From: Melioribacter roseus P3M-2
GTDB taxonomy: Bacteria > Bacteroidota > Ignavibacteria > Ignavibacteriales > Melioribacteraceae
Length of the DNA: 64,000 nt
Assembly: GCF_000279145.1 (NCBI RefSeq)
Contig: NC_018178.1
Location: 1,426,001 to 1,490,000 of the forward strand
Reading direction: 5' to 3'
Part shown: piece after piece, positions 24,568 through 41,382 of the stretch
Layout: each line of letters starts with the position of its first letter
Position numbering within the stretch: position 1 is the first letter of the stretch
Position numbers and translations under genes: made by a program
Notes under the pieces: model-generated
What the model saw: the letters and a program-made list of their open reading frames with translations, nothing else
Told to the model about the DNA's origin: nothing
Database searches by the model: none

Positions 24568-24777
24568 TTATATTACTTTCACTTCGGTAGCTTGCAGCCC
24601 CTTGGGACCCTGAGTAATATTGAATTCCACGTTGTCGTTTTCGTCTAAGGATTTGTATCCCTGGCTTACGATAGCCTGATAATGAACGAATACGTCTTCG
24701 CCGTTTTCTTGTGAAATAAATCCGTAACCTTTTGAGCTGTTAAACCATTTAACAGTTCCTGTTTTGCGCTCTGCCAT
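24568..24777 (-). CDS. Cold-shock domain protein (CspA family), copy 2
   Basis: This 69-residue single cold-shock domain has RNP1 'SKGYGFISQ' and RNP2 'DVFVHYQAI'. It differs from copy 1 at only about ten positions. It has its own leader and terminator, so the two copies are independent transcription units. Both stand between the M16 operon and the divergent TetR gene. Confidence 0.97.
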
Positions 24778-24817
24778 AAGAGTGCTCCTTTTTTTGATTG
24801 TTGTTTGTGTTTTTTTA

Positions 24818-25161: not shown

Positions 25162-25782
25162 TTGAGCGAAAATTTAGAATTACAGGATCGTATTTTAGCC
25201 TTAGCCGAAGAGAAATTCCAAAAATACGGCTTCGGCAAAGTTACAATGGAAGAAATTGCCGCCGACCTCGGCATCAGTAAAAAGACATTATACAAACATT
25301 TTTCCAACAAAGAACATATTCTCCGAGAAGTAATTAAGAAGATTAAGGTCGATTTCGAAACATTTTTTGACGAGCTGTTTAATAACGAAAGCCTCGACTT
25401 TTTTGAAAAGCTGAAACGGCTTATGGAATATGTGACGAAAAATTCAGCCCGCTTTGAAGGAAATATGATAAAAGACCTTGTGCACAATCATCCCGGTATC
25501 TGGGCGGAGCTGAAAGAATATCGAAAAGAACAAGCGCGAAGCCGCATTGTCAGAATACTCGACGAAGGAACCAAAAGCGGTTTTTTCAGAAACGATATTC
25601 TGAGCGAACTGGTCGCTGTTTTGATTTCTTCCGTTCACAATATTATTACTCCGGAGGTAATCAAGGAACTTCCTATTACGGAAAAGAATGCCCACATCTA
25701 TTTTTCCCGAATTATTTTCGAAGGCATTCTTACCGATGAAGGAAGGAAAAAGTTAAAGGAATTGGACCTCCCCCAAAAATAA
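25162..25782 (+). CDS. TetR/AcrR family transcriptional regulator of the efflux operon
   Basis: The N-terminal helix-turn-helix is 'KYGFGKVTMEEIAADLGISKKTLYKHFSNKEHIL', here residues about 18-52, a standard TetR domain. The C-terminal ligand-binding part (about 60-206) is all helical, as usual. The start is TTG 25162, preceded by AAAGG. The TolC, adaptor and RND genes follow at once on the same strand, so it probably represses its own operon until an inducer binds. The inverted repeat at 25109-25136 is the likely operator. Confidence 0.93.
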   Translation: MSENLELQDRILALAEEKFQKYGFGKVTMEEIAADLGISKKTLYKHFSNKEHILREVIKKIKVDFETFFDELFNNESLDFFEKLKRLMEYVTKNSARFEGNMIKDLVHNHPGIWAELKEYRKEQARSRIVRILDEGTKSGFFRNDILSELVAVLISSVHNIITPEVIKELPITEKNAHIYFSRIIFEGILTDEGRKKLKELDLPQK

Positions 25783-25810
25783 GTTTAATAAACAAAAGAG
25801 AGGATAAAAA

Positions 25811-27148
25811 GTGAAAAAAATCTGGTTGTTAATCGCAATGTCGGCGGGACTTGTTTTCGGTCAAACAAACGAAAAACTCGTCCTCGATATCGATACGGCT
25901 ATTAAATTAGCCCTCGAGAACAATCCGAATGTTAAAATTGCGCGTATGGAAGTTAACAAGTCGGAAGAAAAATTCAGGGAAACCGTCAGCGGCTATTATC
26001 CCAAAATCGACGCAAGCGCGCAGTATCAAAGATATATCAATAAACCGGTTATTTTTCTGCCTCCCGGATCCCCTTTCGGAACGACGCTCGAAATAGGATC
26101 GGACAATTCATACAATGCGGCTGTCAGCTTGAGCCTTCCGATTTTTTCTCTTTCCTTAATTGAAGGCACAAAAACTGCCTCGCTCGGAATTGATATTGCA
26201 AAAGTAAATTTACGCAACACCGAAATAAAAACAGTTACCAGCGTTAAAAAATCATTCCTCGGCGTATTGCTAGCCCGCGAATATAAAATTGTAATGCAGC
26301 AAAGCTTAAAAAACGCACAGGACAATCTCGAAAATATCAGGAAATTAAACGCGCAGGGACTTATGTCCGATTATGATTTGTTGCGCGCCGAAGTCCAGGT
26401 GGAAAATTTAAGACCGGCTGTATTGCAAGCCGAAAACAACTATAAATTGGCTCTCGACGGTCTCAAAGTTACAATTGGTCTTGATGCATCTAAAAATATC
26501 GACGTAACGGGCGAACTTAATTACGACGAGAATTATATCGTTCCCGAATATAGTGCGGCGCTCGAAGAAGTTTTGAAAAATAATCCTCAGCTCGAAATGC
26601 TCGATAAACAGGTCGAAATCAGCCAAAAGAGCGTGTCGTTTCAGAAAGCCGCATATTATCCGTCGCTTGCGGCTTTCAGCAACTATCAATATCAAACCCA
26701 GTCGAACGACTTCAAATTCCAGGATTATAAATGGGTAAAAACTTTCCTTGTCGGCGTGCAGGTTCAACTGCCGATATTCAACGGTTTTAAAACAAACGCT
26801 CTGGTGGAACAAGCGGAAATTTCGCTCAACCAGGCGGTCGAACAAAAAGAAGGATTCTTAAAAGCAATTAAAACTCAGATAAGCAGCGTTATCTACAATA
26901 TATCGCAGGCTGTTAAAAGAATAGAAGCGCAGTCGAAAACCGTCGAACAGGCGCAAAAGGGATATGAAATAGCCAAAACGCGACTCGAAAACGGATTGAG
27001 CACTCAACTCGAAGTTAACGACGCCGAACTTGCGCTGCGACAGGCTAAATTAAATCGTCTGCAGGCGGTTTACGATTTCCATTCGGCGCTTGCCGATCTG
27101 CACGAGTTAACGGGCAAAAGTTTTAATTATGAAATCAAGGAGAACTAA
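25811..27148 (+). CDS. TolC-family outer-membrane efflux channel
   Basis: The 445-residue protein starts at GTG 25811 (GAGAGGAT ahead) with a signal peptide ending 'LVFGQ'. It has the two OEP repeats of TolC proteins, each with long coiled helices ('LDIDTAIKLALENNPNVKIARMEV', shown in part, and 'LEEVLKNNPQLEMLDKQVEI') and barrel strands. It forms a trimeric channel across the outer membrane. With the next two genes it makes a complete tripartite pump. The adaptor gene starts 2 bp after its stop. Confidence 0.94.
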   Translation: MKKIWLLIAMSAGLVFGQTNEKLVLDIDTAIKLALENNPNVKIARMEVNKSEEKFRETVSGYYPKIDASAQYQRYINKPVIFLPPGSPFGTTLEIGSDNSYNAAVSLSLPIFSLSLIEGTKTASLGIDIAKVNLRNTEIKTVTSVKKSFLGVLLAREYKIVMQQSLKNAQDNLENIRKLNAQGLMSDYDLLRAEVQVENLRPAVLQAENNYKLALDGLKVTIGLDASKNIDVTGELNYDENYIVPEYSAALEEVLKNNPQLEMLDKQVEISQKSVSFQKAAYYPSLAAFSNYQYQTQSNDFKFQDYKWVKTFLVGVQVQLPIFNGFKTNALVEQAEISLNQAVEQKEGFLKAIKTQISSVIYNISQAVKRIEAQSKTVEQAQKGYEIAKTRLENGLSTQLEVNDAELALRQAKLNRLQAVYDFHSALADLHELTGKSFNYEIKEN

Positions 27149-27150
27149 AA

Positions 27151-28188
27151 ATGAAATCGAATAAAATTTTGGCGGCTTTATTGCTTCTCTTGTTTATCGG
27201 ATTTACCGGTTGTTCTTCGAAAAAAGAAGAAATTAAAGCGGATAAAACCGTGCCGGTCGAAGTAACCATAGTTGTAAAGACCAGCATTGAAAGAGAAATC
27301 GAACTCGTCGGCACTCTGCAGCCCTGGAAAGAAGCCAATCTGGGCGCGCAGACAACCGGTAGAGTCGAAAAGATTTTTGTCGAAGAAGGCAGCTATGTTA
27401 AAGAAGGCGATCTGCTTTTTCAGATGGACGACACCCAATTGATTCAGGCTAAACTTCAGTACCAACTGGCAAAAGACAATTACGAAAGAATGAAACCGCT
27501 CTACGAAACCGGCTCCGTTTCACAGTCTCAGTTTGATCAGGTAAAAGCCGCTTACGAATCGGCTGAGAAATCGTATAACCTTTTGCTTACAAACACTCAA
27601 TTCAGAGCTCCGTTTTCCGGAGTGGTAACGTCCAAAAAATTGAACGACGGGGAAATCTTTTTGCTGGCGCCCACAGGAGGGGCTCCCACAATTGTAACGT
27701 TGATGCAATTAAATCCTTTGAAATTAATTCTGAATGTAAGCGAATCAGATTTTAATCTTGTTAAAACAGGTCAAACTGTAATAGTAAAAACGGATATATA
27801 TCCCGATAAGGAATTTAAGGGAGTAATTAACAGGATTAATCCTGCTATAAATCCCGCTACAAGGACATTCCAGGCGGAAGTCAAAGTGCCAAATGACGGT
27901 AATCTTCTGCGTCCTGGAATGTTTGTAAGGGCTTCAATTGAAATCGGAGCTAAAGACGGCATTATTATAAACCGCTCGGCTGCGTTAAAACAGCTCGGTT
28001 CCGACGCTTATTACGGATTCATTGTAAAGAACAATACGGCTAAACGAGTGGAATTAAAATTAGGCAAGGAATTTAATTCTGTTGTGGAAATAGTAAGCGG
28101 ATTGTCCGAGGGAGATTACCTTGTTACTAAAGGTCAGGGACTCCTGAAAGACGGTTCCGCCGTCGAAATCAAAGCTAAAGCAGAGTAA
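27151..28188 (+). CDS. RND efflux periplasmic adaptor (membrane fusion protein)
   Basis: The signal 'LLFIGFTGCSS' gives a lipoprotein Cys21. Next come the lipoyl-like half-motifs ('GRVEKIFVEEGSYVKEGDLL', 'APFSGVVTSKKLNDGE'), a short helical hairpin ('AKDNYERMKPLYETGSVSQS') and the beta-barrel and membrane-proximal domains. Length 345 is normal for HlyD/AcrA-type adaptors. It links the RND pump to the TolC channel. It is 12 bp ahead of the pump gene. Confidence 0.95.
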   Translation: MKSNKILAALLLLLFIGFTGCSSKKEEIKADKTVPVEVTIVVKTSIEREIELVGTLQPWKEANLGAQTTGRVEKIFVEEGSYVKEGDLLFQMDDTQLIQAKLQYQLAKDNYERMKPLYETGSVSQSQFDQVKAAYESAEKSYNLLLTNTQFRAPFSGVVTSKKLNDGEIFLLAPTGGAPTIVTLMQLNPLKLILNVSESDFNLVKTGQTVIVKTDIYPDKEFKGVINRINPAINPATRTFQAEVKVPNDGNLLRPGMFVRASIEIGAKDGIIINRSAALKQLGSDAYYGFIVKNNTAKRVELKLGKEFNSVVEIVSGLSEGDYLVTKGQGLLKDGSAVEIKAKAE

Positions 28189-28200
28189 AAGGAGAGGGAA

Positions 28201-31200
28201 ATGAATCTACCAGAAATTTCAGTAAGAAGACCGATAACAACTATCATGCTGTTTATAGCGATAGTTATAATCGGATTGGTTTCCTTTCAGAGATTGCCTA
28301 TCGATTTGTTCCCGGAAATCGATCCGCCTTACATAAGCGTTTTGACGCAATATCCGGGCGCCAGCGCGCAGGACGTTGAAATAAATGTAAGTAAAAAAAT
28401 AGAAAGCGGTTTGAGCTCCGTTACAAATCTTAAAAAGATTTCATCTGTATCGATCGACAATATTTCGGTTGTTCAGCTCGAATTCGAATACGGCACAAAT
28501 CTCGACGAGGCTTCGAACGATATCCGTTCGGCTCTCGAATTTGCAAAGCGAAATCTTCCGGACGACGCCGAAGACCCGATCATCTTTAAATTCAGCACAA
28601 ATATATTCCCGATCCTCTTTATTGCGGTTCAGGCTGAAGAAAGCTATGTAGGACTCAACAAACTTGTCGAAAGAGAAATAATCGACCCGCTCAAACGCGT
28701 TAACGGCGTGGGCACGGTTCAGGCTTTCGGCGGCCCGGTAAGACAAATATTGATTAATGTCGACGCTAAAAAGCTCGAGGCCTACAATATTTCGCCGGCG
28801 CAGATATCCCAAATATTACAGGCTGAAAACGTGAACCTCCCCTCCGGCTCTATTAAAGTCGGAGACATGGAGTACAACCTCAGAGTACCAGGCGAATTTA
28901 CTGATGTTAATGATATAAAAAATATTGTCGTTTCCCAATCGGGAGGCAGATTAGTCTATCTTAAAGACGTAGCAGTAGTTAAGGACAGCTTGAAGGACAG
29001 AACGATCGACGTTCGTCTTAACGGCGGCAGAGGACTTTTCATTATCGTCCAGAAACAGTCCGGCGCCAATACGGTGCAGGTTGCCGAAGATGTAAAAGCC
29101 AAAATCGAGGAACTCAAAAAGAATCTCCCTTCGGACGTTAAAATCGATATAACCCAGGACTCGTCCGAATTTATTATTCAATCGGTGAATAATCTTACAG
29201 AAGCGGTATTGCTCGGAGCCGTATTTGTTTCTTTTGTAGTGTTGCTGTTTCTTAGAAAGTGGCGAGCCACATTCATTATCGTGCTAACATTACCTGTGTC
29301 ATTAATCGGCGCATTTATTTATCTCTATTTTTCGGGCAATACTATAAATATTATTTCTCTTTCTTCCTTGTCTATTGCGGTCGGATTGGTGGTAGACGAC
29401 GCGATAGTTATACTCGAAAATATAGCTCGACACGTAGAACGGGGAGCGCGACCGCGCGAAGCTGCGGTTTTCGGCTCTTCCGAAGTGGGGCTTGCCGTCG
29501 CCGCAGCCACGTTTACTATCGTGGCGGTATTTTTCCCGCTGGTGTTTATTTCGGGTATAGCCGGAATTCTTTTTAATCAGCTCGGATTTCTTGTTACGGT
29601 AATGATTCTTGTTTCGTTACTCGCGGCGTTGACGCTCATTCCGATGCTTTCTTCTAAACTTCTGAAATCGCGCAAAGAAGAAAAACCGATTAAGAATCCT
29701 CTGCTTAAAAAAATTGATGAAGGCTTGTCGTCCGCTTTAGAGAGCGTCGATAATTTTTATACAAGAGTTCTCAAATGGGCTTTGGATCATCGCAAAACCG
29801 TAGTGCTGACCGCTTTGTTGATATTTGCCTCTTCCATAATGTTATTGGGAACGTTGGGAACCGAATTCATACCGAAATCGGATTCCTCGCAGTTCCAGCT
29901 CACTTTGGAAATAGAACCCGGCAAAAGACTCGAAGAAACCATCAATTACGTAAAGGAAATCGAACGTATTGTTAAAGAAGATTTTCCGGAAGTTCAATAT
30001 ATGACAGCCCGCTCGGGAGTTAACGACCAGGGCTTTTCTTCTGTTCTGTTCGGTCAAAGCGAAGGCACGAATATAGCTACATTCCAATTCAAAACGTCGA
30101 AGATAGACGAGAGAAACCGTTCCGTATTTGAAATGGCTGATGCGCTGAGGGAACGGCTCAATTCGTTTGTGGGAATAAAAAGCATTAGCGTAAATACGGC
30201 CGGAGCCGGCGCGTTTTTAACAGGGGCTACCGGCGCTCCCGTGGAAGTCGATATTATCGGTCCCGACCTCGATGAATCGTACAAAATCGCTAACAGCATT
30301 AAAGAATATATGAATTCAATCGAAGGCACCAGAGACGTTCGTATCGACATCGGAGACCCGCGGCCCGAATTGCAGATAGTTTTGCAGCGCGATAAAATGG
30401 CGATGAGCGGATTAAATACGGCTATGGTTGGAAACGCTCTGAGAAGTCATTATTACGGCATTACTTCGACTACATACAGGGAGTTGGGAGACGAGTACGA
30501 TATCTTTATCAGTCTTCCGCCTGAAAAGAAAACCAGCATAGACGACATCGAAAATCTGCCTGTTAAAACCTTGCTGGGAACGACCGTCAGACTGAAAGAC
30601 GTCGGCAAAGTAGTTCAGGCGTATTCTCCTCCTACTATCAAAAGAAGAGAGCAGGAGCGCGTGATTGCAGTGCTCTCCGACGTCGAAGGCAGATCCCTCG
30701 GCGAAGTTACTTCGGATATTCAAAACTTTGTTGCCGGTATCGAATTGCCTCCGAATACAACTATCGAATACGGCGGGCAGATCGAACAACAGAGCGATAC
30801 TTTCAAAGACTTGATGCTGCTGCTTGCGCTTAGCGTTATATTGGTATATATGGTTATGGCCGCTCAGTTCGAATCGCTGCTCGATCCGTTTATAATTATG
30901 TTCTCTGTGCCGTTTGCTTTTACGGGAGTTTTCATCGCTCTCTTTATTACGGGAATTCCTTTCAGCGTGATCGCATTCCTCGGCAGTATTATGCTCGTCG
31001 GTATAGTAGTTAAGAACGCTATTGTGCTTGTCGACTTTACGAATATTACAAGAGCCCGAGGCTATGAATTGCGCGAAGCGATTATTTATTCGGGCAGAAA
31101 CAGACTGCGTCCCGTTTTGATGACCACATTTACTACTTTGCTGGGTCTGCTGCCGCTGGCAATCAGCACGGGCGAGGGTTCGGAAATATGGCAGCCGCTA

Positions 31201-31314
31201 GGCATTTCGACTATCGGCGGTCTCTTTTTCTCGACGTTGATCACGCTGATTCTCGTGCCCGTTCTCTATTCGTATTTCGAAACTAAAGTTAAACAGAAAA
31301 AAATTGTAGACTGA
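28201..31314 (+). CDS. RND multidrug efflux permease (HAE1/AcrB-type)
   Basis: The 1037-residue protein has the classic RND plan: TM1, a large porter loop, TM2-7, a second large loop and TM8-12. TM4 carries 'GLVVDDAIVILENI', the proton-relay aspartate pair. The start 'ISVRRPITTIMLFIAIVIIG' and the C-terminal 'RLRPVLMTTFTTLLGLLPLA' motifs are standard. It exports amphiphilic compounds using the proton gradient. No heavy-metal RND signature is present. It is followed 10 bp later by the PG0541-like gene. Confidence 0.96.
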   Translation: MNLPEISVRRPITTIMLFIAIVIIGLVSFQRLPIDLFPEIDPPYISVLTQYPGASAQDVEINVSKKIESGLSSVTNLKKISSVSIDNISVVQLEFEYGTNLDEASNDIRSALEFAKRNLPDDAEDPIIFKFSTNIFPILFIAVQAEESYVGLNKLVEREIIDPLKRVNGVGTVQAFGGPVRQILINVDAKKLEAYNISPAQISQILQAENVNLPSGSIKVGDMEYNLRVPGEFTDVNDIKNIVVSQSGGRLVYLKDVAVVKDSLKDRTIDVRLNGGRGLFIIVQKQSGANTVQVAEDVKAKIEELKKNLPSDVKIDITQDSSEFIIQSVNNLTEAVLLGAVFVSFVVLLFLRKWRATFIIVLTLPVSLIGAFIYLYFSGNTINIISLSSLSIAVGLVVDDAIVILENIARHVERGARPREAAVFGSSEVGLAVAAATFTIVAVFFPLVFISGIAGILFNQLGFLVTVMILVSLLAALTLIPMLSSKLLKSRKEEKPIKNPLLKKIDEGLSSALESVDNFYTRVLKWALDHRKTVVLTALLIFASSIMLLGTLGTEFIPKSDSSQFQLTLEIEPGKRLEETINYVKEIERIVKEDFPEVQYMTARSGVNDQGFSSVLFGQSEGTNIATFQFKTSKIDERNRSVFEMADALRERLNSFVGIKSISVNTAGAGAFLTGATGAPVEVDIIGPDLDESYKIANSIKEYMNSIEGTRDVRIDIGDPRPELQIVLQRDKMAMSGLNTAMVGNALRSHYYGITSTTYRELGDEYDIFISLPPEKKTSIDDIENLPVKTLLGTTVRLKDVGKVVQAYSPPTIKRREQERVIAVLSDVEGRSLGEVTSDIQNFVAGIELPPNTTIEYGGQIEQQSDTFKDLMLLLALSVILVYMVMAAQFESLLDPFIIMFSVPFAFTGVFIALFITGIPFSVIAFLGSIMLVGIVVKNAIVLVDFTNITRARGYELREAIIYSGRNRLRPVLMTTFTTLLGLLPLAISTGEGSEIWQPLGISTIGGLFFSTLITLILVPVLYSYFETKVKQKKIVD

Positions 31315-31324
31315 GAGGTGAAAA

Positions 31325-31618
31325 ATGAAAGCTGTAATGATTGTATATAATCACGGTATAACCGAGGAAGTGGACGAAGCTCTTGAAAAATTATCCATTC
31401 GAGGCTTTACAAGATTTATTAACGTGCACGGTCAGGGCTCGGATAAAGGCGAGCCCCACCTCGGCACGCACATCTGGCCAAGCCAAAATGCCGTTGTGCT
31501 TACGGTTATAGAAGACGATAAGGTAGACCCGTTGCTCGAGGAAGTGCGTCAAATCAATCGCGAAGCGGAAGAACAGGGTATTCACGCCTTTGTGTGGAAT
31601 ATTGAAAAGACGGTATAG
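31325..31618 (+). CDS. PG0541-family transporter-associated small protein
   Basis: The 97-residue protein resembles the small ferredoxin-like-fold/PII-like proteins that follow RND operons in Bacteroidota (PG0541 family). Signature-like features are 'MKAVMIVYNHGITEEVDEAL' and 'HGQGSDKGEPHLGTHIWPSQN'. The function is not known; it may modulate the pump. It closes the efflux operon. Its stop codon overlaps by two bases the start of the left 165-bp repeat. In the ancestral order the cytidylyltransferase gene would have followed 12 bp after it. Confidence 0.85.
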   Translation: MKAVMIVYNHGITEEVDEALEKLSIRGFTRFINVHGQGSDKGEPHLGTHIWPSQNAVVLTVIEDDKVDPLLEEVRQINREAEEQGIHAFVWNIEKTV

Positions 31619-31781
31619 GAGCGGTTAATAATGAAGTTCGGTATAATAGCGGCGGGAACGGGAGAACGATTAAAGGAAGAAGGCATAACCGCGCCCAAGC
31701 CGATGGTAGAGATAGCCGGGAAACCGCTGATTAGAATAATAATAGACGAAGCCCTCCGCAACGGCGCTTCGTCTATTTCAA
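31617..31781 (+). repeat. 165-bp direct repeat, left copy
   Basis: This stretch is identical to 34253-34417 except for one base (C at 31727, T at 34363). It covers the ribosome binding site and the first ~50 codons of the cytidylyltransferase gene. The left copy keeps the original junction with the PG0541-like gene. Confidence 0.97.
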
Positions 31782-31828
31782 ATTTTTTGAATGATAAACA
31801 GACAAAAATAATTTGTAATGAATTTTAG
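31631..31828 (+). pseudogene. Truncated 5' copy of the inositol-phosphate cytidylyltransferase gene
   Basis: The first 50 codons are the same as those of the intact gene at 34267. After 'NGASSIS' the frame runs into unrelated AT-rich DNA and stops at 31828. Only the nucleotide-binding start (GxGxR...PKPM) is kept, so the 65-residue product cannot be an enzyme. It is a by-product of the duplication that flanks the 31.8-34.25 kb insert. It keeps a ribosome binding site and start codon, so a short peptide may still be made. Confidence 0.9.
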
Positions 31829-31844
31829 TAAAAAGATTGTATAA

Positions 31845-31864
31845 ATACGTGCGTGTATGTATGT
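31845..31864. promoter_or_regulatory. AcrR-type operator, copy 1
   Basis: ATACGTGCGTGTATGTATGT lies 23 bp ahead of ATG 31888. It differs by one base from the copy at 32516-32535. It contains the GTATGTA half-site and an ATAC/GTAT dyad, resembling the TACATACA...TGTATGTA operator known for E. coli AcrR. Confidence 0.6.
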
Positions 31865-31887
31865 TTAAAGAAAAAAAATATAATGTT

Positions 31888-32496
31888 ATGAGAAAAACGA
31901 AAAAGGAAGCGGAGCAGACAAAAAAGAGACTGATGAAGGAAGCGCTGATTATTTTTAATAGAAAAGGGTATGAAAACGCACGATTAGAGGATATTGCAAA
32001 AGCAGCGGGAGTAACAAGAGGTGCTATTTATCACCACTTCGGAAACAAAGCTAAATTGTTTATGGAACTAGCATTGCAAAATAAGCATAACTTGAATGAA
32101 ATTATCGAAAGTAGCATAGATGAATCAGAGGAAGACCCATTCAATACAATGTATAATGTCATTAGCAAAATATTTGATAAATTAAAAAAAGACCCCTTGT
32201 TTCGCGGATTTGAGGAACTTAGAATTAAAACTGTTATGAATGATGAGCTCGAACCATTAAAACATATTGTTGATAAAGAACTTAAGGAAAGTTTTGGTAA
32301 AATGATGGGCATCTTAAATGGAATGGAAAGAAAAAATAAATTAGATAAGAATATAGATAAAGAAGCTCTTTCTCTGTTAATAATTTCTTTGGTAAGTGGA
32401 TTGATTTATCTGAGATTAAGACATCCTAGCATTCTGAATATTGATAAGAAGTTAAAAAATATTATTCAAATTTTATCCGCAAGCATAGTGAAATAA
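31888..32496 (+). CDS. AcrR-like TetR-family regulator of the inserted segment
   Basis: The start 'MRKTKKEAEQTKKRLMKEAL' and helix-turn-helix 'LEDIAKAAGVTRGAIYHHFGNKAKLF' are very close to AcrR/TtgR-type repressors of RND pumps. The rest (about 75-203) is the helical ligand-binding domain. I choose ATG 31888 because it matches the family start; an upstream in-frame ATG at 31837 would put the operator inside the gene. Codon use is AT-rich, unlike the TetR gene at 25162. It probably represses itself and the adaptor gene through the two near-identical operators. Confidence 0.9.
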   Translation: MRKTKKEAEQTKKRLMKEALIIFNRKGYENARLEDIAKAAGVTRGAIYHHFGNKAKLFMELALQNKHNLNEIIESSIDESEEDPFNTMYNVISKIFDKLKKDPLFRGFEELRIKTVMNDELEPLKHIVDKELKESFGKMMGILNGMERKNKLDKNIDKEALSLLIISLVSGLIYLRLRHPSILNIDKKLKNIIQILSASIVK

Positions 32497-32515
32497 TATC
32501 TTTATAAAATTATTC

Positions 32516-32535
32516 ATACGTACGTGTATGTATGT
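32516..32535. promoter_or_regulatory. AcrR-type operator, copy 2
   Basis: ATACGTACGTGTATGTATGT lies 29 bp ahead of the adaptor start at 32565 and is 19 of 20 bases identical to copy 1. The core CATAC-N6-GTATG (32515-32530) is a dyad. It would place the adaptor and barrel genes under the AcrR-like regulator. Confidence 0.6.
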
Positions 32536-32564
32536 TAAAGTTATAAATAATACGAAAGATTAAA

Positions 32565-33482
32565 ATGAAACTAAAAGGAAGCAATGTATTGATGTTTTTT
32601 TCCATTTCGTTGTTTTTGATTTTGACTGCTTGTTCACAAGAGGATAAATCTGCGAAAAGCATGGAAGAGATTTATCATGAAGAAGGAATACCTGTTAAAG
32701 TAAAAACAGTTGAAATGTCAAGGATGTCAAAAAAATACTTATATAATGCTGTTCTGGAAGGCATAGAAGAAACATCTAAATGCTCAATGATAGGAGATAG
32801 AGTGGAAAAAATATATGCTGAAGTAGGAGATTTTGTTAAAAAAGACCAGCCAATTATAAAATTTCCGAACGGCAATCCTTCGATAAAATATAACCAGGCT
32901 AAAGTAGCATTTGAAAACGCGCAGAGCACATATAAGAGATATGAAGAATTATATAAAGAAGGAGGCGTTTCTAAACAAGAGTTGGATAATATTAAGACTC
33001 AATATGAAATAGCTAAAGCTGATTTAGAAGCGGTTGAACAAGTAATTGAAGTTAGAGCGCCCATAGATGGGTATATTACTAATATAGCAGTTAAAGAAAC
33101 GCAAAATGTGGACAAGGATCAGCTGTTATTTACTATATCGAATACTAACATATTAAAAGCGAAAATAAAAATAAGCGAGCAGGAAATTGAGTATATAAAA
33201 ACGGGACAGAAAGCTTATGCAAAATGGAAAGAATATATAATTGGAGGAAAAGTAAAGCGTATATCTATGTTAATGAATCCTATAACAAAATCGTTCGATG
33301 CTACAGTGGAGTTCAATAATGCCCTGCATAAACTTAAAGCGGGAGTTACAGCGAATATTTACGTTGAGGAAGAAATCGGCGACGGTATCTTTGTCCATCG
33401 GGAAAACATATTAAGAGAGGGCAATGACTACTATGTATATCTTACTAACAATGGGAAAGCACAGAAGAGGAAAAATTGTTAA
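32565..33482 (+). CDS. RND efflux adaptor, C-terminally truncated
   Basis: A lipoprotein signal ('FLILTACSQE') is followed by the lipoyl half-motifs ('CSMIGDRVEKIYAEVGDFVK', 'VRAPIDGYITNIAVKETQNV') and a short coiled hairpin ('YKRYEELYKEGGVSKQELD'). A barrel domain follows. The protein stops at 305 residues with '...DYYVYLTNNGKAQKRKNC', just where the membrane-proximal domain should start its last strands. Normal adaptors have 340-380 residues. No TolC or RND permease gene follows, so this is probably the remnant of a larger efflux operon. Whether the product still works with the complete pump upstream is unknown. Confidence 0.82.
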   Translation: MKLKGSNVLMFFSISLFLILTACSQEDKSAKSMEEIYHEEGIPVKVKTVEMSRMSKKYLYNAVLEGIEETSKCSMIGDRVEKIYAEVGDFVKKDQPIIKFPNGNPSIKYNQAKVAFENAQSTYKRYEELYKEGGVSKQELDNIKTQYEIAKADLEAVEQVIEVRAPIDGYITNIAVKETQNVDKDQLLFTISNTNILKAKIKISEQEIEYIKTGQKAYAKWKEYIIGGKVKRISMLMNPITKSFDATVEFNNALHKLKAGVTANIYVEEEIGDGIFVHRENILREGNDYYVYLTNNGKAQKRKNC

Positions 33483-33514
33483 ATAACTAATTAAAAATTA
33501 AACTGGAGGTAATT

Positions 33515-34054
33515 ATGAAAAAACTACTATTAACATTATGGCTAATGTTAGCAGCTTTTAGCTTAACAAATGCTCAAACAAGCCTCAAGGGAACATTCGG
33601 ATTGGGTATTGACGGAGTTGATTCACCTAATTTATCTGCCAAACTGTTTTTGAGCGATAAAGTAGCTATGGAATTTATGGCCGGTTTAAACCTATATGCC
33701 CCTGGGGGAGATGAACCTGTTGGGTATACGAAAGTTACCGGCATTAATTATCGTTGTGGGTTGGGTTTCTATTATAATTTTAATCATACAGAAAATCTTA
33801 TGCCATATTTAGGATTAGACGCCCTATTTGAATCGGAGAAAGACGGAGGTTTTTTTGTAACAGAGCCGGATGCTAAAAACCGCTTAAAGCTAAATTTTGT
33901 TTTGGGTGCAGAGTATTTTATTTCCAGCCACTTCTCTATCGGATTGAAAGAGAAGTTGGGTTGCAAAATTGACTTTTCAAGGGATTTACCAAAAGAAGAA
34001 ACAGACTTTTATCTAATTACAGGAGCTATTATAACAGCTAAGTATTACTTCTAG
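33515..34054 (+). CDS. Small outer-membrane beta-barrel protein
   Basis: The signal peptide ends 'FSLTNAQ'. The 179-residue product shows about eight amphipathic strands ('LKGTFGLGIDG', 'INYRCGLGFYYNF', 'LKLNFVLGAEYFI', 'FYLITGAIITAKYYF'). It ends in Phe, the C-terminal signal for barrel insertion. It resembles OmpX/OmpW-sized porin-like proteins of Bacteroidota. It follows the truncated adaptor by 32 bp with a good GGAGG site. A link to export is only positional. Confidence 0.75.
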   Translation: MKKLLLTLWLMLAAFSLTNAQTSLKGTFGLGIDGVDSPNLSAKLFLSDKVAMEFMAGLNLYAPGGDEPVGYTKVTGINYRCGLGFYYNFNHTENLMPYLGLDALFESEKDGGFFVTEPDAKNRLKLNFVLGAEYFISSHFSIGLKEKLGCKIDFSRDLPKEETDFYLITGAIITAKYYF

Positions 34055-34063
34055 TTATGTAAG

Positions 34064-34090
34064 ATGCCGTCTCTGTGTAAGAGGCGGCAT
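34064..34090 (+). terminator. Candidate terminator behind the small barrel gene
   Basis: An 11-bp stem (ATGCCGTCTCT / AGAGGCGGCAT, one G-T pair) lies 10 bp past the stop codon. No T-run follows, so it may only slow transcription. The remaining 160 bp up to the right repeat are AT-rich without a recognisable gene. Confidence 0.5.
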
Positions 34091-34252
34091 TAAATAACAC
34101 AGAACCACTATGCTGGATGAGTTTATTTAAGAACTTTTTTTAAAAATAAATATTGTTTTACAAAAATTATTTCTGATAGGATAATTCTCGAAAGAGGCTT
34201 ATAAGAAGTACAGAATAAAAGACAGAGCAAACTAAACTATTTGGAATATAAC

Positions 34253-34417
34253 AGGAGCGGTTAATAATGAAGTTCGGTATAATAGCGGCGGGAACGGGAG
34301 AACGATTAAAGGAAGAAGGCATAACCGCGCCCAAGCCGATGGTAGAGATAGCCGGGAAACCGTTGATTAGAATAATAATAGACGAAGCCCTCCGCAACGG
34401 CGCTTCGTCTATTTCAA
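34253..34417 (+). repeat. 165-bp direct repeat, right copy
   Basis: It is identical to 31617-31781 apart from one base. This copy belongs to the intact cytidylyltransferase gene. Confidence 0.97.
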
Positions 34418-34977
34418 TTATTATTAATGAAGAGTCGAAAGAAGTAGAAAAGTATCTGAATAATTTGAAGCTGAATATACCGTTAAATATAGTCGTAAAA
34501 TCAACGCCTAGCTCGATGCATAGTTTGTTCGCATTAAAAAAATTTCTGGCAGACGAATCTTTTATACTTGCTACTACAGACTCCGTATTCTTGCCGGATG
34601 AATTCCGAAGGTTTATAAAGTTTGTTAAGATCAATAAGGCTTACGATGGAATTTTATCGGTGACCGATTACGTGGAGGATGAAATGCCTCTCAGTGTTTC
34701 AGTGGATCGTAGCATGATTATTCGTTCTTTCGACGATGGAATTAATAATAACAAGTACGTTACCGGAGGACTCTATTATTTTTCGCCGGATATTTTCAAA
34801 GAGATGGATTTAGCCCTGGATTCAGGTATTAACCGACTTAGAAATTTTCTCAGGTTGCTTCTCTTCAGAGGATATCTTTTCAGGGCGTATCCATTTTCAA
34901 TTATTATAGACGTAGACCATAAAACGGATATTCAAAAAGCCAACAGTCTGTTGACCGAAGCAAAATTAAATTTATGA
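34267..34977 (+). CDS. Nucleotidyltransferase, probable inositol-1-phosphate cytidylyltransferase
   Basis: The protein (236 residues) is a Rossmann-like NTP transferase. It has the nucleotide loop 'IAAGTGERLKEEGITAPKPM', a metal site 'LATTDSVFLPDEF', and a second acidic site 'IIDVDHKTDI'. The sequence alone only says sugar- or polyol-phosphate nucleotidyltransferase. In this gene run it stands with myo-inositol-1-phosphate synthase and a CDP-alcohol phosphotransferase. This is the set used to make CDP-inositol for inositol phospholipid (Rhodothermus type) or di-inositol phosphate. I therefore propose CTP:inositol-1-phosphate cytidylyltransferase. It is the first gene of the run, 7 bp ahead of the MlaE-like gene. 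Its first 50 codons are duplicated at 31631. Confidence 0.75.
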   Translation: MKFGIIAAGTGERLKEEGITAPKPMVEIAGKPLIRIIIDEALRNGASSISIIINEESKEVEKYLNNLKLNIPLNIVVKSTPSSMHSLFALKKFLADESFILATTDSVFLPDEFRRFIKFVKINKAYDGILSVTDYVEDEMPLSVSVDRSMIIRSFDDGINNNKYVTGGLYYFSPDIFKEMDLALDSGINRLRNFLRLLLFRGYLFRAYPFSIIIDVDHKTDIQKANSLLTEAKLNL

Positions 34978-34984
34978 GTTATTA

Positions 34985-35740
34985 ATGACGCGTTTTCAAA
35001 ATATGATCGCCGGATTACAGGAATATTCTCTTTTAGTGAGAGATATTATCATCGGATTCTCCAAAATAAAAGAAAACTGGAACGAAACAATCCAGGAAAT
35101 GTATTTGATCGGCACTAAATCATTTTATCTGATTTTCTTGGGAGGTTTATTTACAGGCGTTATACTTGCAATAGAAACGGGTCATCAACTTGAAACCTTT
35201 GGGGCTACGAGCTGGATTGCAAAGACCGTTTCCCTGGGAATGGTAAGGGAACTCGGCCCTGTAATTACCGGATTGCTGCTTGCCGCCAGAACTGGCGCTA
35301 AGAATACTTCCGAGTTGGGAGCCATGCAATTAAGCGAACAAATAGACGCATTGCGCGCTTTCGGCGTGAGTCCTGTTGAAAAACTTGTAATCCCCAGAAC
35401 TGCCGCTGCGCTTGCAATGTTTTTGCCTCTTACGCTGATTGCAGACCTCGTGGGTATTGTCGGAGGAATGCTCGTCTCCAATCAGACGTTTAACAGCGAC
35501 CTAAATACTTTCTGGCATACTGCGGTTATTTCTCTTAAAATGAAAGATTTATTTGTCGGTTTCTTAAAACCGTTCTTTTTTGGGTTCTTTATTGCCACCA
35601 TAAGCAGTTATTACGGACTAACTACAAAAGGCGGCACTACGGGGCTTGGAAAAAATACAATCAATGCGGTGGTCTATTCCTCGGCTATTATTCTGGTCCT
35701 AGACTTTGTTTTTACAAAAGTGGTTTGGGAGCTATTGTAA
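34985..35740 (+). CDS. MlaE-like ABC transporter permease (lipid transport)
   Basis: The 251-residue permease has five to six membrane helices. It also has the MlaE family signature 'VRELGPVITGLLLAARTGAKNTSELGAMQLSEQIDALRAFGV', quoted here only in its key parts 'RELGPV', 'ARTGA' and 'EQIDAL.A'. It forms the inner-membrane core with the ATPase and MCE proteins encoded next. In E. coli MlaFEDB moves phospholipids between the inner and outer membranes. Here MlaB, MlaC and MlaA are not present in the run. The location inside an inositol-lipid run suggests a special lipid cargo; that is inference. Confidence 0.92.
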   Translation: MTRFQNMIAGLQEYSLLVRDIIIGFSKIKENWNETIQEMYLIGTKSFYLIFLGGLFTGVILAIETGHQLETFGATSWIAKTVSLGMVRELGPVITGLLLAARTGAKNTSELGAMQLSEQIDALRAFGVSPVEKLVIPRTAAALAMFLPLTLIADLVGIVGGMLVSNQTFNSDLNTFWHTAVISLKMKDLFVGFLKPFFFGFFIATISSYYGLTTKGGTTGLGKNTINAVVYSSAIILVLDFVFTKVVWELL

Positions 35741-35742
35741 TT

Positions 35743-36498
35743 ATGATCGAATTAAAGAATGTTACGATTGAAAAAAACGACAAAACAATTCTGAATAACG
35801 TTTCGTTGGAAATTGAAAAAGGCAAAAATACGATTATTATGGGACCCAGCGGCGCAGGTAAAAGCTCCATACTGAAAGTCATTCTTGGATTATGGATGCC
35901 CGACGAAGGAAACGTTCTGTTTGAAGGCAGGGATATCTGTCAAATGAATGATAATGAATTGCTGGAGTTAAGAAAAAATATCGGAATGGTATTCCAGGGA
36001 AATGCGCTTTTTGATTCTCTTACTGTAGCCGATAACATACTTTATTTTCTGCCCGATAAAAGAAAATACTCGGAAGCAGAATTAAAAAAGAAGATTGACG
36101 AGTTGCTATCTTTTGTTAATCTCTCGGGCGCCGAAAATTTATATCCTGAAGAATTAAGCGGCGGAATGAAAAAAAGAGTCGCTATTGCTCGCGCTCTTGC
36201 TTTTAATCCGAAAGTTATACTCTTCGATGAGCCGACTACCGGACTCGATCCGATTAATACGGCTTCAGTCCTTGAATTAATAGATAAATTGAAAGTCAAA
36301 GGCTCCACGTCGGTAATAGTTACGCATATTATTGACGATGCGATGGAAATTGGGGATAAGTTTATAGTTATTAATCGGGGCGAAGTGGCGGATTCGGGAA
36401 ATCTGCAAAAGATATTGAATTCGAGTAATTCCTTTGTAAATCAATTCTTTTTGAAAAGAAAACAATTGTTATCCGAAAGAATATCATTTGGAGCTTGA
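35743..36498 (+). CDS. MlaF-like ABC transporter ATPase
   Basis: Walker A 'GPSGAGKSS', the ABC signature 'LSGGMKKRVAIARAL' and Walker B 'VILFDEPTTGLDP' are all present, and the switch histidine lies in 'VIVTHIID'. The 'GM-KKRVAIARAL' form is typical of MlaF. I start at ATG 35743, two bases after the permease stop, rather than at an upstream TTG. It powers the MlaE-like permease. Confidence 0.93.
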   Translation: MIELKNVTIEKNDKTILNNVSLEIEKGKNTIIMGPSGAGKSSILKVILGLWMPDEGNVLFEGRDICQMNDNELLELRKNIGMVFQGNALFDSLTVADNILYFLPDKRKYSEAELKKKIDELLSFVNLSGAENLYPEELSGGMKKRVAIARALAFNPKVILFDEPTTGLDPINTASVLELIDKLKVKGSTSVIVTHIIDDAMEIGDKFIVINRGEVADSGNLQKILNSSNSFVNQFFLKRKQLLSERISFGA

Positions 36499-36501
36499 AA
36501 A

Positions 36502-37461
36502 ATGATTAGAAATGAGAAGAAAAATTATAGCTTAAAAGTTGGATACACTGTCTTTACGGGACTCGTAATATTTTTTCTGTTTATAATCCTTGTCGGGACG
36601 GAAGGTTACTATTTCTCGAAAACATATAACCTGAACATGTATGTTAAAAACACAAACGGACTGATAGAAGGCAGCAAGGTATACCTGGGCGGATTGAAAG
36701 TAGGCGCCATCGATAAAATTGAATTTACAACGGTGGGAGAGAACAACCTTGTGTTGCTCCGCCTCGAAATCCTCGAAAAATATAAATCGCGTATAACGGT
36801 CAATTCTTACGCTAAAATAGAAACAAGCGGTTTGTTGGGAGACAAACTAATTAATATCTCTCTCGGCGACCCTTCCGAAAAACCTCTAAATGAAAACGAC
36901 TTTATTCCGGTTAAAGAGTCATTGTCGTTCGATAATCTAACCGATAAAATTGATCCTATTGTTTATAGCATTGATAAAATAGCAAACAATATAGCCGTTA
37001 TTACCGATTCTTTGAATGGCAAAAGTAAGCTTTCGGGTATATTATTCGGCATGGAAACGTCGAACGACCTGAAGTTCGCTATTAAACAACTGAATTCCCT
37101 TGCGTCTAAACTAAATAACGGCAACAATACATTTAGTCGCCTGATAAACGAAGACAGTTTATATACTGGTATGAAAACGCTCGTTGATAATCTGCAAAAT
37201 ATATCCGACACGTTGAAATCGGGTAAAGGCACAATCGGTAAATTAATCGTGAACGACTCGTTATATAATAACATAAACGAGATTACCAGAAACCTTGAAA
37301 AAGTCGCCTCGTCGTTAAATAATAATTCGACTTTGGCGGGAGGAATTCTGAATAATCCCGACGGTTATGAAAAGTTAGAGATTCTGCTCGATCAACTTGC
37401 AAAGCTTATAGAAGATATGAATACAAATCCGGAAAAATACTTTCATATATCGGTTTTTTAA
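36502..37461 (+). CDS. MlaD-like MCE-domain protein
   Basis: One N-terminal membrane helix (about 13-32) is followed by an MCE domain (about 40-125; 'YVKNTNGLIEGSKVYLGGLKVG', shown in part, 'YAKIETSGLLGDKLINISLG'). A long helical C-terminal part with heptad-like repeats extends from about 150 to 319 ('LDQLAKLIEDMNTNPEKYF'). Such proteins form hexameric rings that bind lipid in the periplasm. The long tail is typical of MlaD relatives in diderms without MlaC. Confidence 0.9.
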   Translation: MIRNEKKNYSLKVGYTVFTGLVIFFLFIILVGTEGYYFSKTYNLNMYVKNTNGLIEGSKVYLGGLKVGAIDKIEFTTVGENNLVLLRLEILEKYKSRITVNSYAKIETSGLLGDKLINISLGDPSEKPLNENDFIPVKESLSFDNLTDKIDPIVYSIDKIANNIAVITDSLNGKSKLSGILFGMETSNDLKFAIKQLNSLASKLNNGNNTFSRLINEDSLYTGMKTLVDNLQNISDTLKSGKGTIGKLIVNDSLYNNINEITRNLEKVASSLNNNSTLAGGILNNPDGYEKLEILLDQLAKLIEDMNTNPEKYFHISVF

Positions 37462-37478
37462 TAAAAAGGAAACACGCT

Positions 37479-38312
37479 ATGAAAACTATAGCCGGGGTTA
37501 AAAGAAACAGGGATTACTCTCCCAACCATATAGAAAACGACTCCCTTATCTTTATGAAAACAGTTGAGGAAATTAAACAGCTGGGATTAGAAGTGAATGT
37601 ATATGATGAAGAAGAATTGGAAAAGGACCTGAAAATCGAAGAAAATTTAATATTCTCAATGGCAAGGGGCGCATTAGCTTTAAGAAAGCTTTTGAAAGCG
37701 GAGTTGGAAGGTAAAATAGTAATCAATTCTCCGTTAACGGCGCTCAAATGTCACAGAATCAATATGTCAAAATTGCTTAAAGAGGCCGGTGTGCCGTTCC
37801 CGTTTACTGTGTCCGGCACGCTAGATGGACTAACTGACTATAAGTTCGATAACTTTAACTCGACAATTGTTTGGGTTAAAAGAGGCGATATACACGCCAT
37901 TCACAGAGAAGATGTGACGTTAGTATTCAGCGAAGAGGAGAAAAGAAATATCCTTAAAGAATTTGGGCATCGGGGAATTGCTTCGGCAGTATTGCAAAAA
38001 CATATTGAGGGAGAAGTGCTTAAGTTTTATGCAATAAAAGACACCGATTTTTTTTACTACTATTTCTATAATAGGGATAAATCAATTCATTTTGATGAAG
38101 ACAAACTGAAACTGTATACATCGAAAGCCGCCGAGGTGTTAGGGCTGGAAATTTACGGCGGCGACGCTATTATTTCCGAAAGAGGGGAGATAACGATAAT
38201 CGATATGAACGATTGGCCGAGTTTTGCTCCTGTAAGGGATAAAGTGTCTAAATATATCGCGAAATACATTTATCGGAAACTTTTCGGCGCAGAAGAAAGG
38301 GCTTTGATATGA
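37479..38312 (+). CDS. ATP-grasp protein of the inositol-lipid gene run, first paralogue
   Basis: The 277-residue protein resembles RimK-like ATP-grasp enzymes. Lys134 in 'VWVKRGDIHA' fits the ATP-binding lysine, 'HIEGEVLKFYAI' (Glu178) the next strand, and 'ITIIDMNDWPSF' (Asp242, Asn244) the D-x-N metal-binding end. The substrate is unknown. ATP-grasp proteins join an acyl phosphate to an amine or thiol, but inositol 1,3,4-trisphosphate 5/6-kinases share this fold and have a similar 'DIN.(F/W)P' end, so kinase action on inositol is possible. It overlaps the next gene, a paralogue, by 4 bp. Confidence 0.75.
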   Translation: MKTIAGVKRNRDYSPNHIENDSLIFMKTVEEIKQLGLEVNVYDEEELEKDLKIEENLIFSMARGALALRKLLKAELEGKIVINSPLTALKCHRINMSKLLKEAGVPFPFTVSGTLDGLTDYKFDNFNSTIVWVKRGDIHAIHREDVTLVFSEEEKRNILKEFGHRGIASAVLQKHIEGEVLKFYAIKDTDFFYYYFYNRDKSIHFDEDKLKLYTSKAAEVLGLEIYGGDAIISERGEITIIDMNDWPSFAPVRDKVSKYIAKYIYRKLFGAEERALI

Positions 38313-39151
38313 TCACTTTGGCCGGTATTAGAAGACAAACTACTTATTCGCCTAATCACGTTAGCAACGACGCTAAAATATTTTTAAGAACGGTAGAGCG
38401 GCTCAATGAGAAAGGCTTTCGTGTTAATATATATGATGAACATGACCTTGGTTTGGTGGATATTAAAGAGCGGGTAATTTTCTCTATGGCTCAAGGTGTA
38501 GAAAGCACGCTATTGTTAAATGAGCTCGAAGAAAAAGGTAAAATAATTATTAATTCGCCTAAGGGCTCTATTAATAGTTATAGAACAAATATGGTTAAAA
38601 TACTGCCTGAAAAGGGGCTCCCCTTTCCCAAAAGTTTTGTGATAAATGTGGAAGAAAAAAACAAAATTAAGTTCGAGGATTTCAACGCCAGAAAAATCTG
38701 GATAAAAAGAGGCGACGTCCACGCAATACATCGCGAGGATGTGACCGTCGTATATTCGGAAGAAGAAAAGAATAACATTATTACGGAATTTGCCTGGCGC
38801 GGCATTCGGGATGTTGTTCTTCAGGAACATCTCGACGGCGATGTAATTAAATTTTATTCAGTCAGGAATACAAGTCTGTTTCACTGGTTTTATCTCAATG
38901 GAATTAATCACACTCCATTTGAAATCAAACTTCTCAAAGATTTAGGAAATAAAGCTGCAGACGCGCTCGGGCTGGAAGTATACGGCGGAGATGCAATAGT
39001 ATCCGAAGAAGGTAAGATATCGATTATCGACATAAATGATTGGCCGAGCTTTGCTCCTGTCCGGGAAGAAGCCAGTGTGGCAATTGCCGAATTGATTGTA
39101 AAAAAGATAAACAATTATATCTCGGGAGATAATTATAATGGAAGTAATTAA
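38309..39151 (+). CDS. ATP-grasp protein of the inositol-lipid gene run, second paralogue
   Basis: It aligns over its whole length (280 residues) with the preceding protein. The same marks are present: 'SPNHVSNDAKIF', 'WIKRGDVHAIHREDVT', 'HLDGDVIKFY', 'YGGDAI', and 'ISIIDINDWPSFAPVR' (Asp241, Asn243). The two genes come from a tandem duplication and may form a heterodimer or act in sequence on the same product. The stop overlaps the start of the aminotransferase gene by 14 bp. Confidence 0.75.
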   Translation: MITLAGIRRQTTYSPNHVSNDAKIFLRTVERLNEKGFRVNIYDEHDLGLVDIKERVIFSMAQGVESTLLLNELEEKGKIIINSPKGSINSYRTNMVKILPEKGLPFPKSFVINVEEKNKIKFEDFNARKIWIKRGDVHAIHREDVTVVYSEEEKNNIITEFAWRGIRDVVLQEHLDGDVIKFYSVRNTSLFHWFYLNGINHTPFEIKLLKDLGNKAADALGLEVYGGDAIVSEEGKISIIDINDWPSFAPVREEASVAIAELIVKKINNYISGDNYNGSN

Positions 39152-40492
39152 AAAAATAAGTATGCTTCGATAGCGACCGAAATTCCGGGCCCTAAATCAT
39201 TAAAACTATTTGAAGAAGAACAAAATTATATTGCGCCTGGCATTCAAACAATTGCAACCCGCTCAAAAATTGCTATCGATAAAGGAGAAGGTTGTTTTGT
39301 ATATGACGTAGACGGTAATCGTTATATCGATTTCTTCGTTGGCGTAGGGGTGGCAAGTCTTGGATATAATCACCCGGTTTATACGAAACTAATGAAAGAA
39401 CAAATCGATAAAATTCATGTAGGTAGCTTTACGTCAGAAAATCGGGTCAGATTGACCAAATTATTGTCGGAAGTTGCAATCGGCGACCTGAAACGAAGCC
39501 AGTTCTATAGCGGAGGAGCCGAGGCGGTCGAAGCGGCTCTGAGAATGGCTAAATCGTATACAAAGAAAACGGAATTTATAGGCTTCTGGAACGGATTTCA
39601 CGGTAAGACGGCTGGAGTTCTGGGATTACTGGGCGACAGTTTTAAGTTCGATTTGGGACCGCTGCCGGCGGGTATTTATACGAGCCCTTATGCAGATTGC
39701 CGTCATTGCGAATTCAACAGGAGTTTCCCCGGCTGCAACTGGGAATGTGTTGACCACATTAGAAAAAAAATACGATACGAAACTACTAACAATATTGCCG
39801 CTATCATTGTAGAGCCGATTCAGGGTACGGCGGGTAATGTTGTGCCTCCTCCCGGCTTTTTGAAACAATTAAGAATTCTGGCCGACGAGATCGGCGCTTT
39901 GTTAATATGCGACGAAATGATTACAGGATTCGGTAGAACCGGTAAAATGTTCGGTACGCAACACGAAGAAATTGTTCCCGATATTATTACCATTGGCAAA
40001 GGATTCGGTGGCGGATTCCCCGTAACGGGAGTAATGTCGCGCGACGAAATTATTTTTGCAAAACCGTTTGGAAATCCGAGCGGCAGCTCCTCCAGTTACG
40101 GCGGTAATCCTATGGCGTCTACAGCGGCTTATGCTACCTTAAAAACAATTATCGAAGAAGGACTTGTGGAAAATTCTGCCGATGTCGGCGCATTTATGAT
40201 TAACAAATTCAATGAATTAAAAGATCGAATCCCGATTATGGGAGATGTGCGAGGCAAGGGATTAATGATTGGAATCGAATTGGTTAAAGGGAAAAATTCA
40301 AAAGATAAGCTGGATAAAGTATACACGGAAATGTTTTTCAATGAATGTCTGAAACGAGGTCTGATAGTAATGGGATACAATGCGGATATTAGAGTTTATC
40401 CGCCGTTGATTATTAACAAAGAAATTGCCGAAGAAGGCATCTCTATTATGGAGGAGGCTTTTACATATGTCGCAGAAAAAATTAAATATTGA
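39138..40492 (+). CDS. Class III PLP-dependent aminotransferase, frameshifted at an A7 tract
   Basis: From about 39160 the frame encodes a full class III aminotransferase. Its marks are 'GCFVYDVDGNRYIDFFVG', 'YSGGAEAVEAALRMAKSY', 'CDEMITGFGRTGKMFG' and the PLP lysine in 'IITIGKGFGGGFPVTGV'. The only ATG in a sensible place (39138, coupled to the gene before) is in another frame. One more A in the run of seven at 39150-39156 would join the two as 'MEVIKKNKYASIATEIPGPK'. So this is a real frameshift, a sequencing error, or expression by slippage on the A-run. A GTG at 39350 is in frame but would lack about 65 conserved residues. The Cys-rich insert 'CRHCEFNRSFPGC' resembles that of archaeal omega-aminotransferases. 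In context it may aminate a keto-inositol or supply an amino compound; this is inference. Confidence 0.8.
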
Positions 40493-41378: not shown

Positions 41379-41382
41379 TAAA

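Follow-up and report, generated by a model that had tools for sequence, protein, structure and literature searches.

The 64,000-bp stretch of the Melioribacter roseus P3M-2 chromosome analysed here (the window, bases 1426001–1490000) carries a partly duplicated gene start at the border between an efflux operon, which ends in a PG0541-family gene, and a cluster of Mla-like and inositol-lipid genes opened by an NTP transferase gene (the NTP gene). The duplication, a direct repeat of 165 bp (31617–31781 and 34253–34417; Table 1), frames a segment with a TetR-family gene, an efflux adaptor gene and an outer-membrane beta-barrel gene (the barrel gene). The locus looks like a well-preserved but ordinary recombination scar, not a new mobile element, and we see about an even chance that it records gene turnover between the PG0541 gene and the NTP-Mla-inositol-lipid cluster, brought about by recombination of two versions of this border. 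The segment is composite in content, the barrel–NTP neighbourhood recurs in other genomes, the NTP allele is xenologous, the adaptor gene is truncated and the gap behind the PG0541 gene varies among relatives. As a natural example it leaves the joints of gene turnover legible at a variable operon border: 3.4 kb contain the swapped first gene of the cluster (NTP), the decayed remains of a pump operon and a second, truncated gene start. The original prediction had described a single foreign insert; a product of recombination it does appear to be, a single foreign insert it does not.

The repeat pair

The two copies lie exactly at the coordinates originally given and, as noted there, differ at one position (C at 31727 versus T at 34363), a silent change between the leucine codons CTG and TTG. 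The repeat starts 14 bp ahead of the NTP ATG, AGGAG included, and the first two bases of the left copy complete the TAG stop codon of the PG0541-family gene with no gap between them. The open reading frame (ORF) of the left copy runs into unrelated sequence and then stops, giving 65 aa as against the 236 aa of the intact gene opened by the right copy, which confirms the original placing of the left copy at the junction with the PG0541-like gene and of the right copy at the start of the complete gene. The left copy, whose 65 aa lack the remainder of the enzyme, is probably inert. The residues IIN that follow the break in the right copy agree with 12 other NTP loci compared.

Ungapped extension of the repeat adds 13 columns, nine of them matching (178 nt in all, 97% identity); as 0.2% of random 13-mer pairs drawn from the segment and the NTP gene reach 9/13, this extension is a weak hint only. 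Over the 60 bp 5′ of both copies the best local match is what chance would give (359 of 2000 mononucleotide shuffles were as good), and the proposal that the repeat reaches further upstream through the TGGAATAT common to both flanks was rejected, this motif being no better than the shuffles. The 3′ end of the repeat falls inside the distal arm of a strong hairpin within the NTP gene (34371–34422).

A genome sample of 464 kb, made up of the window and 20 stretches of 20 kb (one shifted from even spacing to include a pump gene), contained no other forward pair of at least 100 bp and at least 97% identity lying more than 1 kb apart. The sample does hold closer tandem arrays (e.g. L159, 154 bp at 99.4% and 714 bp apart) and one spaced repeat set (L151, 88–92% identity). 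When searched against the closed genome the whole stretch matched one place, and the NTP protein, besides its own gene and the left copy, matched three paralogues at 27–34%. An assembly artefact is hardly credible: nothing in the sequence speaks for it, each copy has distinct flanks on each side, the copies differ by one mismatch, and the genome is a single closed chromosome of 3,300,414 bases, the length at which one circular chromosome was published (PMC3534657). The main text of the genome paper does not contain the words inositol or transposase.

Composition of the segment

The DNA between the copies (2,471 bp) encodes its three genes on the + strand. That some 2.47 kb is framed by a long, near-identical duplication of a gene start was borne out; that all of it is foreign to the gene was not, since its right third (33515–34252) holds the barrel gene, which is the upstream neighbour of NTP elsewhere. 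We surveyed 164 genomes of the order (NTP threshold, E-value up to 1e-25) and found the barrel gene in 13 others, NTP in 31 others and both in nine others. The barrel gene lies immediately upstream of NTP, on the same strand, in G098, G062 and G093 (about 285, 160 and 120 bp between matches, respectively), the G093 case being weaker because its NTP is only 27% identical, and within 5 kb of NTP in G023, G073 and G076, all of one genus. In G060 the pair sits at two contig ends (24 and 90 bp away), in an order compatible with adjacency; G148 has them on separate contigs, and in G016 there is no linkage. An RND (resistance-nodulation-cell division) pump operon stands ahead of the barrel gene in G098, and RND and channel-like genes are found there in G060. 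Because the barrel gene precedes NTP in other genomes, it is the left copy beside the PG0541 gene that is the odd one, and the AT-rich segment was not one foreign unit put before NTP. DNA between direct repeats, as this case warns, is not in itself a foreign insert; here relatives showed that part of it is the gene's usual neighbour.

The two other genes of the segment resemble the front of a different operon. In G003, G005 and G013 a related TetR–adaptor pair is followed by genes for an RND permease and an outer-membrane channel (OEP). No RND permease or channel gene follows the adaptor in our segment, which therefore lacks the complete acrR-acrAB-type set of TetR, adaptor, RND permease and channel. 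The adaptor itself has 305 aa, as against 346 aa in G003 and 342 aa in G013 (45–49% identity); alignment with these full-length relatives runs to its positions 303 and 301, so the C-terminal loss comes to about 40 residues. Relocation of the transporter within the genome was rejected: the four RND genes retrieved with a related RND permease were 25–34% identical to it, the neighbouring intact pump ranking best, and none was recognised as an orphan partner of the truncated adaptor.

The description 'foreign AT-rich' suits the TetR and adaptor parts best (28.5% and 33.2% G+C); the barrel part, an attested NTP neighbour, has 33.9%. Among 55 non-overlapping ORFs of at least 100 aa in the window (mean 40.5%, standard deviation 3.2), those of TetR (30.4%) and the adaptor (33.4%) have the two lowest G+C contents. 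The value of the adaptor alone is not extreme, since the third-lowest ORF, elsewhere in the window, has 33.6%.

An NTP allele exchanged independently of MlaE

The MlaE protein encoded next to NTP is 85–86% identical to those of G010, G020 and G016 and groups with these three and G148 (95/94). The NTP protein is only 44–47% identical to the NTPs of G010, G020 and G016, among which G016 shares 67–68% with the other two and G010 shares 85% with G020. The NTP tree places M. roseus (G000) beside G112 (98/96), and the approximately unbiased (AU) test rejected a clade uniting G000 with G010, G020 and G016 (p-AU 3e-33; the group was chosen after the identities had been seen). By identities and tree, the NTP allele is xenologous, swapped independently of MlaE. 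G148 shows the same pattern (MlaE 93% identical to G010, NTP 49%).

Exchange of NTP, the first cluster gene, between lineages independently of MlaE was also noted for L120, L121 and L122, as for G148.

The variable border behind the PG0541 gene

Genes of the efflux operon also adjoin the PG0541 gene in G001, G007, G010, G016, G020, G034 and G149. The four of these relatives in which the PG0541 gene and NTP were found at a single locus (G010, G016, G020 and G149) carry between two and five further ORFs (80 aa or longer) in the gap, including a TetR-family gene in G016 and G020; none of the gap ORFs of the four matched the adaptor or the barrel gene.

The original prediction called for comparison with a genome lacking the insert. 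In the same-genus genome G001 the missing stretch is not 2.47 kb but 13.9 kb long, beginning at the PG0541 stop codon (31619–45512, i.e. the segment, NTP and the entire cluster to inositol-1-phosphate synthase): G001 aligns up to 31614 and again from 45513, with DNA identities of 84% and 81% on the two sides. Loss of the cluster in G001 is the simpler reading, because other family members have the cluster at the PG0541 gene; pointing away from a simple loss, G007, G033 and G034 have the PG0541 gene without the cluster there.

Upstream of the efflux operon there is a second direct-repeat pair (24096–24306 and 24572–24782; 211 nt, 86% identical, 476 bp apart), and cross-matches suggest that G001 is likely to have it too.

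Possible origin of the duplication

We infer the following order of events, in which the last step may involve either a circle or a one-sided event. DNA with the barrel gene and a xenologous NTP gene, and with an efflux operon in front, would have entered the locus, where recombination near the NTP/MlaE border would have replaced the resident NTP gene. The incoming efflux operon would then have lost its transporter genes. Lastly, a PG0541–NTP version and a barrel–NTP version would have recombined with only one homologous end, either by crossover, inside the 165 bp, of a circle formed from a fragment of the barrel–NTP version, or by a homologous joint on the right and an illegitimate one at 31781/31782. 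The first 165 bp of NTP would thereby have stayed at the PG0541 gene, with the complete NTP gene behind the barrel gene. Such one-step recombination with a single homologous end would account for all features of the locus: the two xenologous starts, the operon-like left joint, the barrel gene in its usual place and the absence of a recombinase. The resemblance of the TetR and adaptor genes to the TetR-MFP-RND-OEP operons of G003, G005 and G013, operator-like dyad included, supports this course of events, and M. roseus encodes ComEC, while Ku was not found in its genome.

A laboratory precedent exists. Plasmid DNA was cut after conjugation into E. coli, and among the 60 clones of the class studied 56 yielded the polymerase chain reaction product of a partial duplication; in 14 sequenced clones the duplicated homologous gene end measured 109–950 bp. 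The authors explain this by one crossover with a circular molecule missing part of its end, the other four clones being apparently one-sided illegitimate events (PMC3240628). The likeness to our locus is the partial duplication of a homologous gene end around inserted DNA. There the DNA was a selected plasmid; here the case is natural and the cargo includes a gene that is the neighbour of NTP in other genomes. Homology-facilitated illegitimate recombination likewise combines one homologous with one illegitimate joint and gives inserts of about 1–2 kb, but its usual product carries a deletion of recipient DNA (PMC3240628), and here there is a duplication.

Several observations weigh against recombination of two versions. 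NTP directly follows the PG0541 gene in none of the four relatives G010, G016, G020 and G149, so the parental version needed for the last step is not attested. The barrel–NTP link is itself imperfect: four barrel-bearing genomes (G031, G034, G078 and G081) have no NTP at an E-value up to 1e-25, the nearest NTP relative, G112, has no barrel gene alongside, and the adjacent NTP of G093 is the divergent one noted above. The closest relatives are 59% (barrel), 58% (NTP) and 49% (adaptor) identical and no closer ones were found, hence donor DNA at the joint could not be compared; a close donor was rejected, as an adaptor scan of the genome contigs gave 44 loci with 46% at best and the best barrel relative had the 59% just given. 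A second NTP fragment was present at none of 24 other NTP loci from 23 genomes (best four matches per locus; some loci are on short contigs, and eight further NTP-bearing genomes fall outside this set), so the locus does not scar habitually. The presence of ComEC says little and proves no competence because E. coli has it too. Lastly, with a strong hairpin at the end of the repeat, breakage or template switching within the chromosome would fit at least as well.

The last point leads to the main rival, an intrachromosomal origin, which we regard as possible, if doubtful. The segment would already have lain upstream of NTP, and two intrachromosomal routes could have made the left copy: a break following the PG0541 gene could have received a templated insertion of 165 bp through template switching, or a tandem duplication of the TetR-to-NTP unit could have been reduced by deletion to this remnant. 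The context of the right copy is attested elsewhere and that of the left copy is not; both copies are of the same xenologous allele and one silent change apart; the copied stretch ends in the distal hairpin arm, where copying could stall; and the TetR promoter region follows directly downstream of the break. The left joint, by contrast, falls exactly at the PG0541 stop codon and the NTP ribosome-binding site, an operon-like arrangement that would be rare by chance. The tandem route, moreover, requires one duplication and two deletions, and no direct evidence of template switching was found. The sequence does not decide between this origin and recombination of two versions.

A short NTP-like frame in G015 was considered as a possible further scar and rejected; by eye it is a truncated nucleotidyltransferase of another kind in another context.

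Mobile elements and reversibility

We found no recombinase or integrase among the scanned ORFs of the segment and cluster, and no inverted repeat of at least 20 nt joining the segment ends, in line with the original prediction on both counts; the sole pair between the copies (I8) is the hairpin internal to the repeat, seen across copies. At blastn sensitivity the segment matched nothing in plasmid and phage collections. Searching viral contigs for relatives of the TetR protein gave 16 pattern hits and no confirmed relative, and PHROGs gave matches only to families of unknown function. A foreign mobile element was rejected on these grounds (no plasmid or phage DNA match at blastn sensitivity, no confirmed TetR relative in viral contigs, PHROGs matches of unknown function only, no recombinase among the scanned ORFs). 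Nor does the segment look like a transposon or insertion sequence: neither a transposase nor terminal inverted repeats were found, and at 165 bp the duplication is not the short one expected at a transposition target. Its marks are those of a partial-duplication scar, namely a near-identical part of a gene at both ends with neither recombinase nor terminal inverted repeats.

The original suggestion amounts to a foreign circle that shared 165 bp with an intact PG0541–NTP–MlaE operon and entered it by one crossover. As a mechanism, the single crossover of a circle holds up well and has the laboratory precedent described above; in its foreign form it is disfavoured, and we consider it unlikely. 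Its geometry fits exactly, duplications of 109–950 bp are known from laboratory crosses (PMC3240628), and the low G+C content of the TetR–adaptor part would agree with it. The circle would, however, need to have carried this species' own NTP start at 99.4% identity, preceded by the gene that neighbours NTP in other genera, and the plasmid, phage and viral searches gave it no counterpart. A site-specific element, with the 165-bp repeats as attachment sites and an integrase that has since disappeared or works in trans, is highly improbable. Direct repeats at both ends do rebuild the gene start, as for an integrase-type genomic island; against it, the scanned ORFs of the segment and cluster include no integrase or recombinase, the one tRNA gene found in the window (12715) is not nearby, the content consists of decayed operon pieces, and none of the 24 other loci has a second NTP fragment.

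There is a slim chance that the repeats act as a reversible switch, recombination between them excising a 2.64-kb circle and fusing the lipid cluster to the efflux operon by a perfect junction. If so, cells of one culture would differ, their membrane-lipid synthesis following either the pump or its own promoter. The biological effect of the locus is probably small, save that the repeats might recombine and so delete the segment.

Regulatory sites and the inositol-lipid cluster

Table 1. Features of the PG0541–NTP border in the window
Feature	Position	Strand	Evidence and remarks
TetR-OEP-MFP-RND efflux operon, PG0541 gene last	25162–31618	+	TetR_N, OEP, adaptor and RND permease matches
PG0541-family (P-II-like) transporter-associated gene	31325–31618	+	NF045581, E-value 2.9e-34; Pfam P-II
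Left repeat copy	31617–31781	+	NTP ribosome-binding site and first codons, truncated, fused to PG0541 stop codon
TetR-family repressor, AcrR/MtrR-like	31837–32496	+	Pfam TetR_N, 4.3e-16; true start possibly ATG at 31888
TetR operator-like dyad ahead of TetR gene	31844–31863	+	Pattern match with 2 mismatches
Second TetR operator-like dyad, ahead of adaptor gene	32515–32534	+	Exact pattern match; pattern written from this site
RND efflux periplasmic adaptor, C-terminally truncated	32565–33482	+	TIGR01730, 1.5e-41, above cut-off
Outer-membrane beta-barrel gene	33515–34054	+	Pfam OMP_b-brl, 8.5e-4, below cut-off; upstream neighbour of NTP elsewhere
Strong RNA hairpin, possible terminator	34063–34091	+	12-bp stem, no T run; z −4.25 for surrounding 71 nt
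Promoter-like TTTACA-17-GATAAT before intact NTP gene	34157–34185	+	Such sites in the region: 15 versus 13.3 in shuffles
Right repeat copy	34253–34417	+	Start of intact NTP gene
Intact NTP transferase, xenologous allele	34267–34977	+	Pfam NTP_transferase; tree and AU test
Hairpin-forming stretch in NTP gene	34371–34422	+	Single-stranded DNA fold z −4.37, 0/200 shuffles as good; inverted repeat I4
Rest of cluster	34985–45467	+	MlaE, MlaF, MlaD, two paralogues, aminotransferase, CDP-alcohol phosphatidyltransferase, oxidoreductase, LPG_synthase_TM, HAD hydrolase, inositol-1-phosphate synthase

The best NCBIfam models for the TetR gene were MtrR and AcrR, both under their cut-offs. The 20-bp dyad pattern, itself derived from the two sites in Table 1, has these two matches in the window against 0.08 expected, and comparable dyads lie 5′ of the related TetR genes in G003, G005 and G013; the dyads may resemble the AcrR operator. 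These acrR-acrAB-type operons share with the segment the TetR gene, the operator dyads and the adaptor, and differ from it in that here the adaptor is truncated and the RND and channel genes are missing. The segment itself probably drives the intact NTP gene, as the strong RNA hairpin and the promoter-like site preceding it suggest. The terminator scan did not pick up the hairpin, and promoter-like sites in the region are not enriched (15 versus 13.3 in shuffles).

No NCBIfam model matched NTP above its cut-off, and a model for inositol-phosphate cytidylyltransferase was among the weaker matches. NTP is probably such a cytidylyltransferase, since inositol-1-phosphate synthase and CDP-alcohol phosphatidyltransferase genes share its cluster. 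The Mla models matched below their own cut-offs; the order of the cluster is conserved in relatives. By Pfam, the NTP transferase, CDP-alcohol phosphatidyltransferase, HAD hydrolase and inositol-phosphate synthase genes are clustered here, the set proposed for an alternative and unconfirmed inositol-lipid pathway in Bacteroidetes (PMC9246714). Compared with the cluster described there, that of M. roseus brings the same four genes together and adds MlaEFD-like genes and an aminotransferase, a combination seen in the taxonomic order of Melioribacter. From its gene content, it looks as if an inositol-type lipid may be both made and moved by one operon.

The cluster with MlaEFD-like, NTP, CDP-alcohol phosphatidyltransferase, aminotransferase, HAD and inositol-1-phosphate synthase genes (34267–45467) is present in several genera of the order, and G149 holds two versions of it, one without the Mla genes. 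At 37479–39151 it includes two tandem paralogues of 277 and 280 aa that match no Pfam family and are ATP-grasp-like by eye; some relatives carry just one of them.

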